From: Acidisoma sp. L85
GTDB taxonomy: Bacteria; Pseudomonadota; Alphaproteobacteria; Acetobacterales; Acetobacteraceae
Assembly: GCF_009765865.1 (NCBI RefSeq)
Contig: NZ_LMUQ01000005.1
Coordinates: forward strand, 1 to 51,897
Direction of reading: 5' to 3'
Length of the DNA stretch: 51,897 bases
Each line of letters starts with the position of its first letter. Position 1 is the first letter of the stretch. A model generated the notes under the pieces. It made no database searches and was not told the origin of the DNA. It worked only from the letters and a program-made list of their open reading frames with translations. Shown here in pieces: positions 774-51,440 of this stretch. The position numbers were made by a program, and so were the translations under genes.

Positions 774-3617
774 ATGCCCCTCCCACACGTGAACCCGCCG
801 CCGGATATTTCCGCGGCACTCCCCGACTGGACCGCCCTGGTCTCCGGCGCCGGCCGCGCCGCGCTGGCGACGGCGGAAGGCGAGGTGCTCACCCTCCGCG
901 CCGAGGCGGTGGCCGACCGGCTGCGGGCCGAGGGTCCGCCGCTCGTCGTCCACGCGCCCTCCACCTGGCGGCGTCTCGGCCTGGCGCCCGTCGCGGCCTA
1001 TGACCTGCTCGAGCTTTTCGCCTTCGTGGCGCCCGCCGAACCCGCCGTGCCGACGCCGCGCGGCCTGGCTTCGGCGCTCGGCCTGGAACCGCCCCGCGCC
1101 GGGCTCGAAGCCGCCGCCGCCGCTCTCCCTGAAATCGCCGCCGCTCTGCTGCGCCGCCTTCAGACCGAGGCGCATCTGCCCCGCAACGCCGATGCCGGCG
1201 CCCTCGCCGGCCGCATGGCCCGCGCCGGCTGGGGCTGGGGTCCGCTCATCGTCGAAACGCTGGCCCTCGCCGGCCATGGCGCGAGCGGCTCAGAAGTTGC
1301 GGCCCTGAAGGTCTGGCGCCGTCTCCCCGAATGGGAGGAGCAAGCCGCCCCGCCGCCGCCTTCCGCCCATGCCGTCGCCCCGCACGAAGCCCGCACCCGC
1401 CTCGCGCAGCTCGTCGGACCGGAGGCGGAGCAGCGCCAGGGCCAGGCGGATTTTGCCTCCGCCGCCAGCGCCGCCTTCGCCCCGCGCGAGACCGAGGGCG
1501 CGCCGCATCTCGTGCTCGCCGAGGCCGGAACAGGCACCGGCAAGACCCTCGGCTATGTCGCCCCCGCCAGCCTCTGGGCGGAGCGCAATGGCGCGCCGGT
1601 CTGGATCAGCACCTTCACCCGCCATCTGCAACGCCAGGTCGAAACCGAACTCGCCCGCCTCTTCCCCGACCCCGCTGAGCGCCGCCGCCGCGTCGTCCTG
1701 CGCAAGGGGCGGGAGAACTACCTTTGCCTGCTGAACTTTGAGGATGCCGTCACCAATGCGACCGGCGGCGCCTTCAACCCGGGCGCCATCATCCCCCTGG
1801 GCCTCATCGCGCGCTGGGCGGCCCTGACCTCGGATGGCGACATCCTGGGCGGCGACCTGCCCGGCTGGTTCATCGAGATCTTCGGCACGCCCACCGTCGC
1901 GGCCCTCGCCGACCGTCGCGGCGAATGCATCTACGCCGCCTGCACCCATTGGAAACGCTGCTTCGTCGAACACGGCATCCGCCGCGCCCGCGAAGCCGAC
2001 CTAGTCGTCGCCAATCACGCGCTGGTCCTGACCCAGGCCGCCTGGGGCGGTCTCGACGACGCCACCGTCCCCACACGCTACGTCTTCGACGAAGGCCACC
2101 ATCTCTTCGATGCCGCCGACGCCGCCTTCTCGGCCGAACTCTCGGGACGGATGACCGCCGAGCTGCGGCGCTGGCTGCTCGGCACGGAAGGCAGCCGCGC
2201 GCGGGGCCGTGGCCTCGCGGTCCGCATCGGCGATCTCGTGGCCGACCGTCCGGAATTGCTGACACCGCTCGAAGCCGCACTCACCGCCGCGCGCGCCTTA
2301 CCGGCCCCCGCCTGGCCGAGCCGGCTGGAGACGGATGGGCCCGAACTGACCGGCCTGGAAGCCGGCCGCGCCAATCCCGCCGAGGCGTTTCTACGTGCCC
2401 TCCGCCGCCAGATCCTCGCCCGCCTCCCCGGCGCCGCGAGTGAGGACGACGCCCGCACCGGCTTCTCCTCCGAAAGCGATCTGCACCCCGTCGAGCCTGA
2501 TGTCATCGCGGCGGCGGATCGCTTCGGCCGGGCGCTGGCCCGTATCGCCGAACCGCTCGGCACCCTCATGCATCGCCTGCTCGCGCGGCTCGACGAGGAT
2601 GCCGACAAGCTCGACAGCGCAAGCCGGGCGCGCATCGAGGGTCTCGGCCGCACCATTTCCCGCCGTGCCATCGATCCGCTGACCGCTTGGCAGATCATGC
2701 TCAAGGAATTGGCCGAGCCCCCGGCAGCCCCCGGCACGCGGCCGACCCATGTCCAATTCCTCCGCCTCGATCGCGGCGAGGCTGGCGACCGGGACGCCGC
2801 ACTGCTGCGGCATTGGCTCGACCCTACCATCCCTTTCGCCACCACTCTCGCCGCCCCGGCCCACGGTCTGCTGGTGACCTCGGCCACTTTGCGCGACGGC
2901 GGGGAGGCGGATCCCGAACTCGCCTGGACCGCCGCCGAGGCGCGGGTCGGTGCCGGACATCTGCCGCTCCCGGCGATCCGCGCCGCGCTTTCCAGCCCCT
3001 TCGACTATGCCGCGCGAACCAAGGCTTTCGTGGTGACGGATGTCGATGTCGGCGACCCGGCGGCGCTGGCGGCCGCTTACCGCACCCTGTTCCTGGCCTC
3101 GGGCGGCGGCGCCTTGGGCTTGTTCACCGCCATCGGACGGCTCCGCGCCACCTACCGCCGCATCGCCCCGGCGCTGGAACAGGCGGGCCTGCCGCTCTAT
3201 GCGCAGCACGTCGATGCGATGAACAATGCGACGCTCGTCGATATCTTCCGCGCCGAGGAGGATAGCTGCCTGCTCGGCACCGATGCGATGCGTGACGGCG
3301 TGGACGTGCCGGGCCGCGCGCTGCGCCTCGTGGTATTCGAGCGCGTGCCCTGGCCGCGCCCCGATATCCTGCATCGCGAACGCCGCATCCATCTCTCGGG
3401 CGCCAAGCCCAAAAGCTATGACGACCGCGTCGCGCGCCTCCGCCTCCGCCAAGCCTTCGGCCGTCTCATCCGCCGCGCCGACGACCATGGCGTGTTCGTC
3501 TTACTGGACCGCCGTACGCCGACCCGATTGCTGGCCGCCTTTCCGCCAGGCGTGACAGTGCAACGCGTGGGCCTCGCGGAAGCGGCGGCGGAAACGCGGG
3601 GATTCCTGTCGGCGTGA
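774..3617 (+). CDS. DinG/Rad3-type ATP-dependent DNA helicase
   Basis: This 947-residue protein is an XPD/DinG-like superfamily 2 helicase that should unwind DNA 5'-3' using ATP, probably in repair or in clearing R-loops and stalled forks. Walker A is EAGTGTGKT at residues 250-258 and the Walker B/DEAH box is DEGHH at 439-443. The C-terminal half carries helicase motifs such as LLVTSATL, LGTDAMRDGVDVPG and a late QAFGRLIRR arginine-finger motif. Cysteines between the Walker motifs (around GECIYAACTHWKRC) fit the Fe-S cluster of this family. The N-terminal 240 residues are an Ala/Pro-rich extension of unknown role. An in-frame stop at 756 limits upstream extension. The gene is monocistronic and ends in a convergent region with a palindromic repeat. 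Confidence 0.88.
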   Translation: MPLPHVNPPPDISAALPDWTALVSGAGRAALATAEGEVLTLRAEAVADRLRAEGPPLVVHAPSTWRRLGLAPVAAYDLLELFAFVAPAEPAVPTPRGLASALGLEPPRAGLEAAAAALPEIAAALLRRLQTEAHLPRNADAGALAGRMARAGWGWGPLIVETLALAGHGASGSEVAALKVWRRLPEWEEQAAPPPPSAHAVAPHEARTRLAQLVGPEAEQRQGQADFASAASAAFAPRETEGAPHLVLAEAGTGTGKTLGYVAPASLWAERNGAPVWISTFTRHLQRQVETELARLFPDPAERRRRVVLRKGRENYLCLLNFEDAVTNATGGAFNPGAIIPLGLIARWAALTSDGDILGGDLPGWFIEIFGTPTVAALADRRGECIYAACTHWKRCFVEHGIRRAREADLVVANHALVLTQAAWGGLDDATVPTRYVFDEGHHLFDAADAAFSAELSGRMTAELRRWLLGTEGSRARGRGLAVRIGDLVADRPELLTPLEAALTAARALPAPAWPSRLETDGPELTGLEAGRANPAEAFLRALRRQILARLPGAASEDDARTGFSSESDLHPVEPDVIAAADRFGRALARIAEPLGTLMHRLLARLDEDADKLDSASRARIEGLGRTISRRAIDPLTAWQIMLKELAEPPAAPGTRPTHVQFLRLDRGEAGDRDAALLRHWLDPTIPFATTLAAPAHGLLVTSATLRDGGEADPELAWTAAEARVGAGHLPLPAIRAALSSPFDYAARTKAFVVTDVDVGDPAALAAAYRTLFLASGGGALGLFTAIGRLRATYRRIAPALEQAGLPLYAQHVDAMNNATLVDIFRAEEDSCLLGTDAMRDGVDVPGRALRLVVFERVPWPRPDILHRERRIHLSGAKPKSYDDRVARLRLRQAFGRLIRRADDHGVFVLLDRRTPTRLLAAFPPGVTVQRVGLAEAAAETRGFLSA

Positions 3618-3624
3618 TGTCGTT

Positions 3625-3737
3625 GGTTTGAGCCGTGCTCATTCCACCTCGTCATGCTCGGCGAAGGCCGAGCATCCACGCCTTCCTTGCACGACGAAGG
3701 CAAGGCGTGGATGGCACGCCTCCGCGTGCCATGACGG
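3625..3737 (+). repeat. Three-armed palindromic repeat, copy 1
   Basis: Three nested or adjacent inverted repeats: a left arm ATGCTCGGC-gaa-GGCCGAGCAT, a central stem CCACGCCTT...AAGGCGTGG, and a right arm ATGGCACGC...GCGTGCCAT, bracketed by CGTC and GACG that can pair with each other. The copy is nearly identical to 51251-51364 and related to 21753-21851 and to 34050-34135 (inverted). It sits between the convergent helicase and glycosyltransferase genes. It resembles REP/MITE-type elements in style; I know of no name for it. Confidence 0.85.
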
Positions 3738-3772
3738 AGCTCTGGGGCGTGATTCAAATAGATCATCCCGCC

Positions 3773-5341
3773 CTAACCAGCCGCCGCGAACGTCCTCTCC
3801 AGCCACGCCTCCACCAAACCCACATCGATCGTAATGTCGCGCAGGCCAAAGAGGTTGCGCCGGGGATCCTGCAGCCGAGGATCGTTGAAGACCGGGTCGT
3901 CCGAGGCGCCATCTTTGCCAGTCAAAGCGGCGTAGCGGAAACCGCCTTCCGGTGCGAGCGACGCATAGGCATCCGTGCCGTACAGCGGATGAAAGAACTC
4001 CAGAACATGCGTGCCCGGCTGGCACAGCACGATATTGGTAAGCCCAGCACCATGCGCGCCGATGACATGGCTGGCCGCGGCGAAGGCGGCAGCTTGTTCG
4101 GCAAAGCTGATCTGACTCGCGAGCAAAATCGTGAAGCCATGGGCCGTCAGCAACCGGCAAAGCTCGGCCTCATTGGTCACCCGGCGCGAGGTCGCATCAC
4201 CACGCGAAATATAAAGCCGCAGACTTGGAGTCGCCGTTATTTCCGGCGCCAGAGTTCGGCGCAGATAATCGATCGCCCAGCCAGCGCCGAGATGCGCGGG
4301 ATGCTGCAATTCTCGGCAAGTGCTCGCGACCCACAAGCGGCCGACGCGCAGTCGCGCAGGCCGGCCCGTGCCGAAAACATGACGCACACCGCAACGCTCC
4401 AGAATGGCGCGCTGAAACTCCACGACTGGCTCGGGACCGATGACGGTGACCTCATCGAGCCGCAGCCCGGCCTGCGCATAGCAAGCGAGGCGTGTCACCT
4501 GGTCGAGCATGAAATGCGACAGGTTCGGCGGGTGGGAGAAACGATCGCCGATGATGACGGCTTCCTCGCAGGCGGCGTGCTCAACCTCGCTCAGTCTGGC
4601 GAGGTGGCGCTCGAACAACGCGGGGAAGTCGCAGATCGAAACATCCCAGTGCGGCCGACCGGCGGAGTCCCGGACCATGAAGACATCGCCATCGGTCAAA
4701 ACCTCGGCATCCTGCAAACAGGCGACCGTGACCGCCGGCCGCGAGGCATTCACGGCGAGGCGAAGCAGCGCCGGTATCGGCGGCCCGCCGAGAATCTCGA
4801 TCGTGCAAGCCGCGCGGGTGCTTGCGGGGAAAACCATGCGATCGGTTCTGGCCGCATCCACACGCGGATTGCCCGGCGGCCCGAGATAGGGCTCCGCCGA
4901 CCGGCCGGTCATATTGAGCAACGGCCGGATCTCATACAGTGCGGCGATCGGCTTTTGCGGGGAGTGAGCGGCATGCGTCTCGAAAACATCGAGCATGTCG
5001 TTCGGGCGGCCCCGCTGCGCGAAGGACATGAACAGCGCACGGGACGCCGCCGGCGATCCTGAAGACTCGGGATGCAGCGCTTGTGCAAAGCCGAAGAGCA
5101 GAAAGGCCAGTTCGGGCTTGCCGCGGATCTCGTAAGCCTCGGCGGCGCGGAAGAGAATCCAGTAATTCGTAATGCGCAGGCGCCAGAACAGACTCTCGAA
5201 GAGCCAGCACACCGCGTCGTCCCGCTTATCCGCCGCGAGCCGCGACATATGCGACAGCAGCCTCTCTTCCTGCGCCTCGGCGGCCAGAATTTCCTCGACC
5301 AGCACGCGGGTGGCGGCCTCGGCTTCCGTCGAGGGGTTCAT
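3773..5341 (-). CDS. GT61-type (DUF563) glycosyltransferase
   Basis: A 522-residue protein. The second half has the signature of DUF563/GT61 glycosyltransferases: GDRFSHPPNLSHFMLDQVTR, then a Rossmann-like region, then IGAHGAGLTNIVLCQPGTHV near the C-terminus, where the HGAGLTN loop probably contacts the nucleotide sugar. The N-terminal 150 residues are helical and lack a signal peptide. Its substrate is unknown; surface polysaccharide or glycoprotein decoration is the usual role. The start at 5341 (MNPSTEAEAAT) is chosen because its ATG overlaps the TGA of a 35-codon upstream ORF as ATGA, indicating coupling. A longer open frame to 5605 overlaps that ORF and reads as non-coding sequence. Confidence 0.8.
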   Translation of the reverse strand: MNPSTEAEAATRVLVEEILAAEAQEERLLSHMSRLAADKRDDAVCWLFESLFWRLRITNYWILFRAAEAYEIRGKPELAFLLFGFAQALHPESSGSPAASRALFMSFAQRGRPNDMLDVFETHAAHSPQKPIAALYEIRPLLNMTGRSAEPYLGPPGNPRVDAARTDRMVFPASTRAACTIEILGGPPIPALLRLAVNASRPAVTVACLQDAEVLTDGDVFMVRDSAGRPHWDVSICDFPALFERHLARLSEVEHAACEEAVIIGDRFSHPPNLSHFMLDQVTRLACYAQAGLRLDEVTVIGPEPVVEFQRAILERCGVRHVFGTGRPARLRVGRLWVASTCRELQHPAHLGAGWAIDYLRRTLAPEITATPSLRLYISRGDATSRRVTNEAELCRLLTAHGFTILLASQISFAEQAAAFAAASHVIGAHGAGLTNIVLCQPGTHVLEFFHPLYGTDAYASLAPEGGFRYAALTGKDGASDDPVFNDPRLQDPRRNLFGLRDITIDVGLVEAWLERTFAAAG

Positions 5342-21752: not shown

Positions 21753-21851
21753 CGTCGTGGCATGCGAAGGCATGCCATCCACGCCTTTTAGTGGCCGGGA
21801 CGTTTCGCCAAAGTTAAGGCGTGGATGGCACGCCTTCGCGTGCCATGACGG
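21753..21851 (+). repeat. Three-armed palindromic repeat, copy 2 (variant)
   Basis: Keeps the central stem CCACGCCTT...AAGGCGTGG and the right arm ATGGCACGCC-ttc-GCGTGCCAT, with flanking CGTC...GACG. The left arm is replaced by a different hairpin, TGGCATGC-gaa-GGCATGCCA, which itself resembles the right arm. It lies between the convergent importer ATPase and oxidoreductase genes. Confidence 0.8.
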
Positions 21852-27605: not shown

Positions 27606-28214
27606 ATGAAAAACTTTTTGATGGCCGCCGTCGCCGCAGTCAGCCTTGGCATGACGGGCGCCGCCGTAGCAGCTACCCAGCCGATCCAGCACCAGGGCGT
27701 CGCCCAGCAGGCCCGGAATGAGACGGTTCTGCCGAACCAGCGCCCCTCATACCTCGCCCGTAACGAGCAGGTCTCGCCCCAGCAGCGCCCGGCATATCTC
27801 TCGCGCAACGAGACGGTGCTACCCAATCAGCGCCCGTCCTACCTTGCTCGCAACGAGCAGGTCTCGCCGCAGCAGCGCCCGGCTTACCTCGCCCGCAACG
27901 AGCAGGTCTCGCCGCAGCAGCGCCCGGCTTACCTCGCCCGCAACGAGCAGGTCTCGCCCCAGCAGCGTCCGGCCTACCTCGCCCGCAACGAGCAGGTTTC
28001 GCCCCAGCAGCGCCCGGCCTACCTTGCTCGCAACGAGCAGGTCTCGCCCCAGCAGCGTCCGGCCTACCTTGCTCGCAACGAGCAGGTCTCGCCCCAGCAG
28101 CGTCCGGCCTACCTCGCCCGCAACGAGCAGGTTTCGCCCCAGCAGCGCCCGGCTTACCTCGCCCGTAACGAGCAGGTTTCGCCGCAGGAGCGTCCGGCTT
28201 ACCTAGCCGCGTAA
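27606..28214 (+). CDS. Exported protein of eleven 15-residue tandem repeats, function unknown
   Basis: A 202-residue protein. Residues 1-23 are a clear Sec signal (KNF, then AAVAAVSLGMTGAAVA, cleavage after VAA). After a 13-residue linker, residues 37-201 are eleven exact-length repeats. Units 2 and 4-11 read RNEQVSPQQRPAYLA with single changes (YLS in unit 2, PQER in unit 11); units 1 and 3 read RNETVLPNQRPSYLA. Each unit is polar, Pro/Gln-rich and net basic (two Arg, one Glu), with one Tyr. No Cys, no lipobox and no wall anchor are seen. The ribosome site GGAG lies seven bases before the ATG and a strong terminator follows. I do not recognise the family. Polymer or wall binding, or an intrinsically disordered periplasmic role, are guesses. 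Confidence 0.8.
   Translation: MKNFLMAAVAAVSLGMTGAAVAATQPIQHQGVAQQARNETVLPNQRPSYLARNEQVSPQQRPAYLSRNETVLPNQRPSYLARNEQVSPQQRPAYLARNEQVSPQQRPAYLARNEQVSPQQRPAYLARNEQVSPQQRPAYLARNEQVSPQQRPAYLARNEQVSPQQRPAYLARNEQVSPQQRPAYLARNEQVSPQERPAYLAA
27714..28208 (+). repeat. Eleven tandem 45-bp repeats inside the exported-protein gene
   Basis: The array is in frame throughout and differs mostly at synonymous sites (CTCGCC/CTTGCT, GTC/GTT, CCC/CCG, CGC/CGT). Units 4 and 5 are identical, and another neighbouring pair is identical as well, which points to recent duplication by slippage or unequal recombination. It has no spacers, so it is not a CRISPR array. Confidence 0.9.
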
Positions 28215-28282
28215 CGTCAACCAAGACGATACCGGCAGCGCCAATCGAAATCTGGCGTTGCCGCGAGGTTAAGAGCACAAGA

Positions 28283-32913: not shown

Positions 32914-34007
32914 TGCCCGCCCATGTCGCCATTCAGGGCGTGTCCCGTCGCTTCGGCGACTATACGGCCCTGCACGATGTCACGCTGGAAATCGCGCCCG
33001 GCGAACTCGTGGCCGTGCTCGGTCCCTCCGGCTCCGGCAAAACCACGCTGCTGCGGATCGTCGCGGGTCTGGAGATGCCGGATCGCGGCCAGGTTCTGAT
33101 CAATGGCGAGGACAACGTGATGCGCCCGCCACGCGAACGTGGCGTCGGTTTCGTCTTCCAGCATTTCGCGCTGTTCCGGCACATGACGGTGTTCGAGAAC
33201 ATCGCCTTCGGCCTCCGCGTCCGCCCCCGCGCCGAACGTCCGAGCCGCGCGGATATCAACAAGCGCGTGAAGGAGCTGCTCGACCTCGTCCAACTGAGCT
33301 GGCTCGAGAAGCGCTACCCCGCCGAGCTTTCCGGTGGCCAGAGGCAACGCGTGGCCCTGGCGCGCGCCCTGGCGATCGAGCCGCGATTGCTATTGCTGGA
33401 CGAGCCCTTCGGCGCGCTGGACGCCAAGGTTCGCAAGGAACTCGGGCAGTGGCTCCGGGAGCTGCATCATGGCGTTGCCGTTACGGGCGTGTTGGTGACG
33501 CATGACCAGGAGGAGGCGCTGGAGCTTTCCGACCGCATCGTGCTCATGTCGCAAGGACGCGTCGAGCAGGTGGGCACACCGAACGAAGTCTATACCCGCC
33601 CGCGCAACCCCTTCGTCTTCGAGTTCCTCGGCGAGACCAGCCACATCCCCTGCCGCCTTCTGGCCGGTGCGCTTGCCACCGCCGGCGGCGCGCAGACGGC
33701 ACAGAATGGCGTCGCGGCCGCCGTCGCCGATGGTGAGTCCACGCTATTCGTGCGTCCGCATGACCTTGGGCTGCGAGCGGACCCGTCTGGACCCGCGACG
33801 ATCCGCCACATCACCCCGAGTGGACCCTGGGCGCGGGTCGAGTTTTTGCTCGAGGGCAGAAGCCTCTACGCCGCCTTGCCGCTGGACAGTATCGCCGGGT
33901 CAGGTCTGACGCCGGGTGGCACCGCCATGCCACTACCCCGCCGCGGCGTTCTCTTTGCCGATGGGCGGGGAACCATGGATGAGCCGCTGCACTGGGCGGT
34001 GTCTTGA
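32913..34007 (+). CDS. cysA: Sulfate/thiosulfate importer ATPase CysA
   Basis: A 364-residue ABC ATPase powering the importer. Walker A is [18 protein letters not shown], the signature is [19 protein letters not shown], and Walker B is [20 protein letters not shown]. The CysA-type phrase [20 protein letters not shown] is present. Residues 240-364 form the shortened TOBE-like regulatory domain typical of CysA ([10 protein letters not shown], then [11 protein letters not shown]). Last gene of the operon; the transcript runs into palindromic repeat copy 3. Confidence 0.94.
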
Positions 34008-34049
34008 TGCGTGATATCTTTGGTTTAGGCCGCGCGGCTCAAGGATCGG

Positions 34050-34135
34050 TTATGGCACGCGAAGGCGTGCCATCCACCCCTCGCCTGCGGGAAACAAGGA
34101 AGGCGTGGATGCTCGGCTTTCGCCGAGCATGACGT
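34050..34135 (-). repeat. Three-armed palindromic repeat, copy 3 (inverted)
   Basis: On the minus strand it reads CGTCATGCTCGGCGAAAGCC GAGCAT, CCACGCCTTCCTTG, a divergent centre, GGTGGATGGCACGCCTTCGC and GTGCCATAACC, that is, the same left arm and right arm as copies 1 and 4. The central stem is weakened (CCACGCCT against AGGGGTGG). It lies between the convergent cysA and hpf genes. Confidence 0.83.
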
Positions 34136-51179: not shown

Positions 51180-51200
51180 CCCCTCCCCGCAAGGGAGGGG
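51180..51200. repeat. GC hairpin CCCCTCCC-cgcaa-GGGAGGGG
   Basis: A perfect 8-bp stem starting 18 bp after the gabD stop. No T run follows. It shares its sequence pattern with the hairpins at 12416-12434 and 12499-12517. Confidence 0.55.
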
Positions 51201-51250
51201 ATGGGGGTGGGGAAGGCACCCACCGGCGTGGCTCTGGAGCGGAGTTTCTT

Positions 51251-51364
51251 GGTTTAGCCGTGCTCATCCCACCACGTCATGCTCGGCGAAGGCCGGGCAT
51301 CCACGCCTTTCCTTGCGGGACGAAGGCAAGGCGTGGATGGCACGCCTTCGCGTGCCATGACGGA
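51251..51364 (+). repeat. Three-armed palindromic repeat, copy 4
   Basis: About nine in ten bases match copy 1 over the full length, including the lead-in GGTTTAGCCGTGCTCAT. Left arm ATGCTCGGCGAAGGCCGGGC AT (one G-T pair), central stem CCACGCCTT...AAGGCGTGG, right arm ATGGCACGC...GCGTGCCAT, closed by CGTC...GACG. It lies between the convergent gabD and rpmB genes. Confidence 0.87.
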
Positions 51365-51440
51365 TGTTTGGGTCGCGGTTCTGTATCAGATCAGCACAAT
51401 CTGATCCTTCCTCCGAGGAGGGATCGGCTTACCCACAAAC

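Follow-up and report, generated by a model that had tools for sequence, protein, structure and literature searches.

CGTC REPs, in the passages of Di Nocera et al. 2013 (PMC3733652) that deal with them, have a CGTC tag, a stem that starts with AT, a 4-nt loop and a CCA tail, and are arranged as head-to-head heterodimers with a complementary spacer. Those passages report no transposase associated with this class and state that the way in which it multiplies is an open question. They also report that REPs are biased to convergent and co-directional intergenic gaps, often near a 3' end, and that the GTAG REPs, which are associated with a RAYT, are likewise palindromes outside genes, with an end that in many cases provides the TAG stop of a neighboring gene.

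Some mobile elements are similar in other respects. According to PMC2170065, the target of IS630 elements is TA, which is duplicated on insertion; ISY100, the example treated there, is autonomous and not miniature. A preference for CTAG is indicated by the title of a paper that PMC2170065 cites (Tenzen and Ohtsubo 1991). RUP of pneumococcus is a non-coding intergenic element of 107 bp that has a TA target and whose ends resemble those of an IS630 element in its host genome; the portions of PMC2229807 that describe it mention no REP dimer and say that RUP appears to target IS regions rather than gene ends. MITEPsy1 of Pseudomonas syringae is a 100-nt MITE with IS5-type ends that, in the corresponding part of PMC3189936, inserts after CTAG or YTAA. 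No paper among the matches listed in our literature search (titles and the starts of abstracts, with subscription journals mostly outside) linked CGTC REPs to IS630, and the relevant sections of PMC3281130, PMC12306157 and PMC6006769 contain nothing on such a link.

We analyzed a stretch of 51,897 nt from contig NZ_LMUQ01000005.1 of Acidisoma sp. L85 (the window), together with copies of its repeats elsewhere in the genome. These copies resemble the described CGTC REPs in tag, stem, loop, tail, dimer arrangement and spacer, and differ from them in that many dimers lie within a unit that has IS630-type ends and stands at a fixed distance from a stop codon. They share with GTAG REPs a position at TAG stops, but the GTAG tag and the Y1 transposase are both absent here. 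The probable explanation, in our judgment, is an IS630-type MITE of about 164 bp that carries CGTC REPs, is targeted to TA and is retained where it is harmless.

A CGTC REP dimer within a longer unit

Four three-armed palindromes had been predicted in the window from its letters, and we found all four (Table 1), with paired cores shorter than the extents given in the original prediction, from which the names of flanking genes are taken. The left hairpin held to be common to the copies is kept in copy 2 as a pairing but not as a sequence (GGCATGC replaces GCTCGGC), and the closure by CGTC and GACG breaks down in copy 3, where GACG is lost and the core terminates in AACC. The window also contains a palindromic C-/G-rich stretch, CCCCTCCCCGCAAGGGAGGGGATGGGGGTGGGG, at 51180-51212 between the gabD stop and copy 4, and a tandem repeat of a 45-nt unit at 27657-28253 (9 overlapping 237-nt copies, spacing 45), which falls mostly within a called gene at 27606-28214 and corresponds to a 15-residue protein repeat.

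Table 1. Features of the four copies, in window positions.
Feature	Position	Strand	Evidence
Copy 1 unit, two outer inverted ends, MITE-like	3611..3772	+	End scores left 31, right 19; end-pattern match 3611-3635
TGA stop of plus-strand gene 774-3617, within copy 1 left end, offset -7	3615..3617	+	
Copy 1 core, CGTC REP head-to-head dimer, three arms	3650..3736	+	Covariance model 107.2 bits (one of the model's own seeds); fold
TAG stop of minus-strand gene, adjoins copy 1 right end, offset 0	3773..3775	-	
Copy 2 core, CGTC REP dimer, alternative left arm	21753..21850	+	87.1 bits
Copy 3 core, CGTC REP dimer, GACG closure lost	34048..34134	-	84.7 bits
Copy 4 unit, two outer inverted ends	51238..51400	+	End scores 23 and 25
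Copy 4 core, CGTC REP dimer	51275..51362	+	109 bits

By a covariance-model search of the 6.38-Mb draft genome, in which the best 150 of 7567 candidates were scored, we found that the 150 scored hits represent at least 146 distinct places in the genome, a count that is a lower bound because at most 150 candidates were scored. The 48 aligned seeds were picked by an exact right-arm 17-mer, with window copy 3 as the exception. The common core is CGTC-[AT GCTCGGC GAAG GCCGAGC AT]-CCACGCCTT-spacer-AAGGCGTGG-[AT GGCACGC CTTC GCGTGCC AT]-GACG, and its third arm is the paired spacer. The stems are of 9 bp and start with AT and the loop is GAAG or CTTC, where CGTC REPs have stems of 8-9 bp and loops of 4-5 nt; CCA lies behind the left hairpin, and CGTC stands outside the hairpin at one end in columns that are near-invariant among the 48 aligned copies. 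Most copies are head-to-head dimers in intergenic positions at gene 3' ends. Judged by its sequence, the core is thus a CGTC-tagged REP head-to-head dimer, a known kind (PMC3733652).

Six folds of the four cores (two cores were folded on both strands) have z values of -6.6 to -11.6 relative to shuffles, and 98.1% of cells in the 48 aligned copies are paired. Double changes are more frequent than in shuffles (15 versus 1.8 in these 48 copies), but all of them fall in the left hairpin, where they trace back to two alternative arm types with three copies each, so they represent few events. The left arm is GCTCGGC in 108 of the 146 copies, and the other 38 have other left arms. In 31 of the 146 copies (for example at loci L003, L007, L015 and L020) the right hairpin carries a G/C-rich insertion of about 15 nt, such as GGGGGGCCGCCCC, which is apparently a second, nested palindrome. 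An Rfam scan of the window gave no match at gathering level. The Caulobacter sRNA CC3552, also an alphaproteobacterial RNA family of about 100 nt, has a weak similarity far under its gathering score (17.1 bits versus 50), and we rejected it as an identity.

Many of the CGTC REP dimers lie inside a longer unit of about 164 bp with outer inverted ends, which is the new feature here. The unit ends have the consensus CTAG-AGCGKGATG...TTGAACCG. The outer flanks read TAG followed by AGCGGGATGTCTTTGGTTTGAACCGTGCTCATTCCACCA-CGTC on the left and, reading inward, TAG followed by AGCGTGATGATCTAATATTGAACCGCGACCCAAAGATC-CGTC on the right, and form imperfect inverted repeats. By end score, 145 unit ends were detected on 94 of the 146 copies, with both ends on 51 copies and no outer end on the remaining 52. 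The length of the 51 two-ended copies is 156-181 bp (median 165). In the window, no outer end of copy 2 passed the score; one outer end of copy 3 was seen by eye, below the score threshold, beside a stop codon at 34005-34007 (stop-core distance 40); and neither end of copy 4 abuts a stop codon (offsets 75 and 114).

In the 1.46 Mb read, an independent profile of the whole unit matched 169 places, of which 147 coincide with listed copies, and reached both ends in 43 of the 169. A pattern made from the ends alone had 38 matches in the genome, versus none for a reversed control: 35 at 34 listed copies, one at a truncated dimer and two at single CGTC palindromes. Three further units and 22 further profile places stand outside the counts that refer to the 146 copies. 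At loci L150 and L152, IS630-type ends surround a single palindrome (CGTCATGG...CCATGACG) where a dimer would be expected.

IS630-type ends, TA sites and stop codons

The suggestion that a RAYT gene might accompany the repeats did not hold: we found no Y1 transposase (PF01797) in the genome, while five of 14 control genomes were positive. The transposase matches that we did find comprise 13 to PF13340 and seven to PF13358. Among these 20 loci, two (L267 and L268) have unit-type ends on both sides, and both are IS630-type, with elements of 1052 and 1043 bp that are identical at 1017 of 1052 aligned positions. Their ends are CTAGAGCAGGATGGTTTTGGCTTGAA and CTAGAGCGTGATGCATTTAGCTTGAA. Counting CTAG, unit and IS ends agree at 22/27 positions left to left, 20/27 right to right, and 21/27 and 18/27 crosswise, and the best local scores at the two IS ends are 18 and 15-16, versus 9 and 11 in one shuffle per locus. 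Independently, by pairing TA-flanked ends, we found the IS terminal repeats GAGCAGGATGGTTTTGGCTTGAAT and GAGCGTGATGCATTTAGCTTGAAG (18/24 alike); TA flanks both ends of both copies. The encoded protein matches IS630 (NCBIfam NF033545) with 161.7 bits against a cut-off of 100, and a single full-length reading frame was seen in neither the L267 nor the L268 copy. The repeat unit resembles an IS resident in the genome in its terminal inverted repeats and, at 156-181 bp, is far smaller than the IS630 elements, as is typical of an IS630-derived MITE. A further IS630-type locus (L272, 915-2066) has different ends (CTAGTGGAT...), likewise starting in CTAG.

The units have a precise relationship to stop codons. 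A gene's 3' end is faced by 117 unit ends, and in 31 of these the offset of the stop codon is 0, whereas no other listed offset has more than six; the 31 stops are TAG in 26 cases and another codon in five. Distances between stop and core are most often 38-40 nt, on either side, because the outer flank is conserved. Among facing stops that lie 37-41 nt away from the core, 47/59 are TAG, compared to 54/160 elsewhere (P = 1e-9). TA is present just outside 59 of the 145 unit ends, and just outside 31 of the 114 that have no abutting stop, compared to 3.1% of control intergenic positions. In 20 copies one end adjoins a stop and the far end was detected as well; TA stands at the far end in 8 of them. 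CTAG is scarce in this genome (232 observed versus 928 expected from base composition, in 280 kb). Paired outer 4-mers gave no support for a target duplication, with 4 perfect repeats in 51 versus 2.1 when shuffled. We found no empty site with a clean TA duplication, and the gaps downstream of gabD in 30 loci yielded no usable one.

To assess whether stop codons are hit more often than TA sites in general, we took as a null the TA sites downstream of stops in gaps free of the element and gave each a weight according to the flank preference seen in the copies. With limits of 100-150 bp, stop codons make up 37-41% of weighted TA sites in convergent gaps and 28-32% in co-directional gaps, and the observed numbers are 20/56 and 10/33; with limits of 60 and 300 bp the expected shares are 50/40% and 30/23%. 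None of these narrow nulls (60-300 bp) leaves an excess of stop codons, with P from 0.99 to 0.20. A null drawn from whole gaps (13% and 8% expected) did give an excess, but we judge the narrower one fairer because copies avoid gene fronts, and we make no claim that stop codons are recognized as such. TA targeting combined with tolerance only behind genes explains the stop-codon share; that is, TA targeting and loss of harmful insertions suffice for it.

These observations fit a simple mechanism. A complete copy, about 164 bp long, would be a miniature inverted-repeat transposable element, in which the outer 27 bp or so on each side would serve as terminal repeats of the IS630-family (Tc1/mariner-like) kind and the inside is the CGTC-tagged REP head-to-head dimer with its three-armed fold. 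An IS630-type transposase acting in trans would excise the unit and paste it into TA, with CTAG preferred and TA duplicated. If the element starts with G at both ends, its anatomy implies that a hit on the TA of a TAA or TAG stop would rebuild TAG, and the end of the protein would be unchanged. Stop codons account for a large fraction of the TA sites found shortly downstream of genes in this genome. Insertions within or before genes would probably be lost, and the survivors would be copies at gene 3' ends, chiefly between convergent genes.

Gene orientation and alternative explanations

In the window, the original prediction of nine convergent gaps, four of them occupied, is borne out: with 9 convergent, 25 co-directional and 8 divergent gaps counted, copies are in 4/9 convergent gaps and in 0/33 others (Fisher P = 0.001). 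Exclusive placement between convergent genes does not extend to the whole genome. The count by flank orientation that had been proposed as a check gave, for the at least 146 copies, 82 convergent, 55 co-directional and 3 divergent positions, 5 called intragenic (in three of which the host gene is a called ORF of 114-126 nt) and 1 at a contig edge. As controls we took 14 hand-picked 20-kb stretches with none of the 146 copies inside, which have 21 convergent, 130 co-directional and 22 divergent gaps of at least 1 bp; all gaps come from an ad hoc codon-usage gene caller that we wrote, trained on this genome and applied also to the congener G003. Convergent gaps hold 82/140 listed intergenic copies and make up 21/173 control gaps (P about 2e-18), and divergent gaps hold 3/140 versus 22/173 (deficit P = 0.0005). 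The copies are therefore not spread without regard to orientation, and the 55 co-directional and 3 divergent copies make the convergent bias strong, not exclusive.

This bias is what would be expected of a functional RNA or DNA element of any origin, positively selected between convergent genes as a two-way transcription barrier or a stabilizer of RNA 3' ends. We regard that explanation as possible but rather doubtful. It agrees with the very stable fold and with the conservation of the hairpins: among copies chosen by one end (30 of the 38 pattern matches used), conservation is 0.92-0.94 in the core arms, 0.79-0.80 in the inner flanks and 0.77 at the opposite end. However, a consensus scan for intrinsic terminators (a stem followed by a T-tract) called none in the four cores of the window and marked two weak stems at left outer ends (3610-3622 and 51230-51246), and copies in co-directional gaps show no preferred orientation (26 run in the direction of the genes and 29 opposite to it); neither result supports the two-way terminator that had been proposed. 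The abutment of stop codons follows from the TA target, and many convergent gaps are empty (5/9 in the window, and 98 in the stretches read). Hairpins more conserved than ends are not predicted by one simple insertion, and the conservation of the core arms above the outer parts, together with the variable left arms, points to selection on, or exchange of, hairpins after insertion, which leaves room for a host role such as an RNA-end barrier.

Alternatively, the CGTC REP dimer might move by itself through a hairpin-specific enzyme, the IS630-like ends belonging to a separate insertion that received a dimer by chance. Copies in which no end was detected (52/146), copies with other left arms (38/146), the two units that enclose one palindrome where others have a dimer, and the occurrence of the REP half in Defluviicoccus and another alphaproteobacterial MAG would all be compatible with this, but the CGTC core is present in all 38 end-pattern matches and no Y1/RAYT transposase was found in the genome, and we consider it unlikely. 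We consider it very improbable that the source of the outer ends is a different transposase family whose target is of the YTAR type, IS5 for example, or that the likeness to IS630 ends is due to chance. The unit flanks do fit YTAR too, MITEPsy1 is a precedent for an IS5-type MITE inserting after CTAG or YTAA (in the part of PMC3189936 cited above), and the similarity to the IS630 elements extends over only about 27 positions on each side. However, both ends are absent from all 13 PF13340 (IS5-type) loci, the subgroup that the search covered, whereas both IS630 copies carry them at their exact termini with scores above shuffle.

An IS630-type MITE retained where it is harmless is thus the reading that we prefer. 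Among the explanations offered at the outset, the IS630-type ends of many copies and the avoidance of divergent gaps speak most for a MITE that is tolerated only at gene ends; the word "only" overstates the case, since 55/140 listed intergenic copies are co-directional.

Relatives and the spread of CGTC REPs

We compared gene ends next to the element with orthologs in four congeners (of 38 eligible genes 34 were listed and 18 compared; the comparison covered 30 loci for 11 genes, among them, judged by their C-terminal sequences, probably GyrB and DNA polymerase I). The same last residue is found in 21 of the 30, so the orthologs mostly end at the same residue and the element sits at native gene ends. 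The orthologous stops are TGA in 16, TAA in 7 and TAG in 7, so TAG is at about its base rate, which does not tell whether TAG predates the element.

Core matches were found in 13 of 40 genomes of relatives, and we fetched 20 stretches from among the matches listed. In G003, the 15 copies among the matches listed include 6 convergent, 9 co-directional and no divergent ones, and in 9 of the 15 a facing stop lies at 37-41 nt from the core, with outer sequence that is related but different. Two IS630 loci were found in G003, and the ends of neither match those of its units, an argument against a simple one-to-one partnership in that genome. Among 27 IS630 loci of other genomes, several of them cut by contig ends, five have a (C)TAGAGC-type end scoring at least 14. 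In three other genera (5 stretches, 6 copies), outer ends were not evident by eye. The exact core pattern had no matches in named genomes other than its own, and the left REP half alone matched 12 stretches, from Defluviicoccus and another alphaproteobacterial MAG. At a site in G003 (L212) orthologous to one in strain L85 (L012), inspection by eye showed another palindromic element, whose arms are unrelated, again directly behind a TAG stop.

As a tentative extension, CGTC REPs might have spread in this genus inside IS630-type miniature transposons that carry them as cargo and that rebuild the stop codons into which they insert, with the hairpins kept by selection or exchange after the ends decay. 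If so, many isolated CGTC REPs elsewhere could be remnants of such units. CGTC REPs are said to lack a transposase, and the IS630-type ends found here supply a testable answer: the unit has a boundary, a target (TA, often CTAG) and a transposase family that resides in the genome, which makes the multiplication of CGTC REPs directly testable. The stop-codon arithmetic also gives a simple, non-functional reason for the pile-up of repeats at gene ends, a position that is otherwise read as evidence of a role in RNA, and the unit suggests how one class of REPs may spread through a genome.
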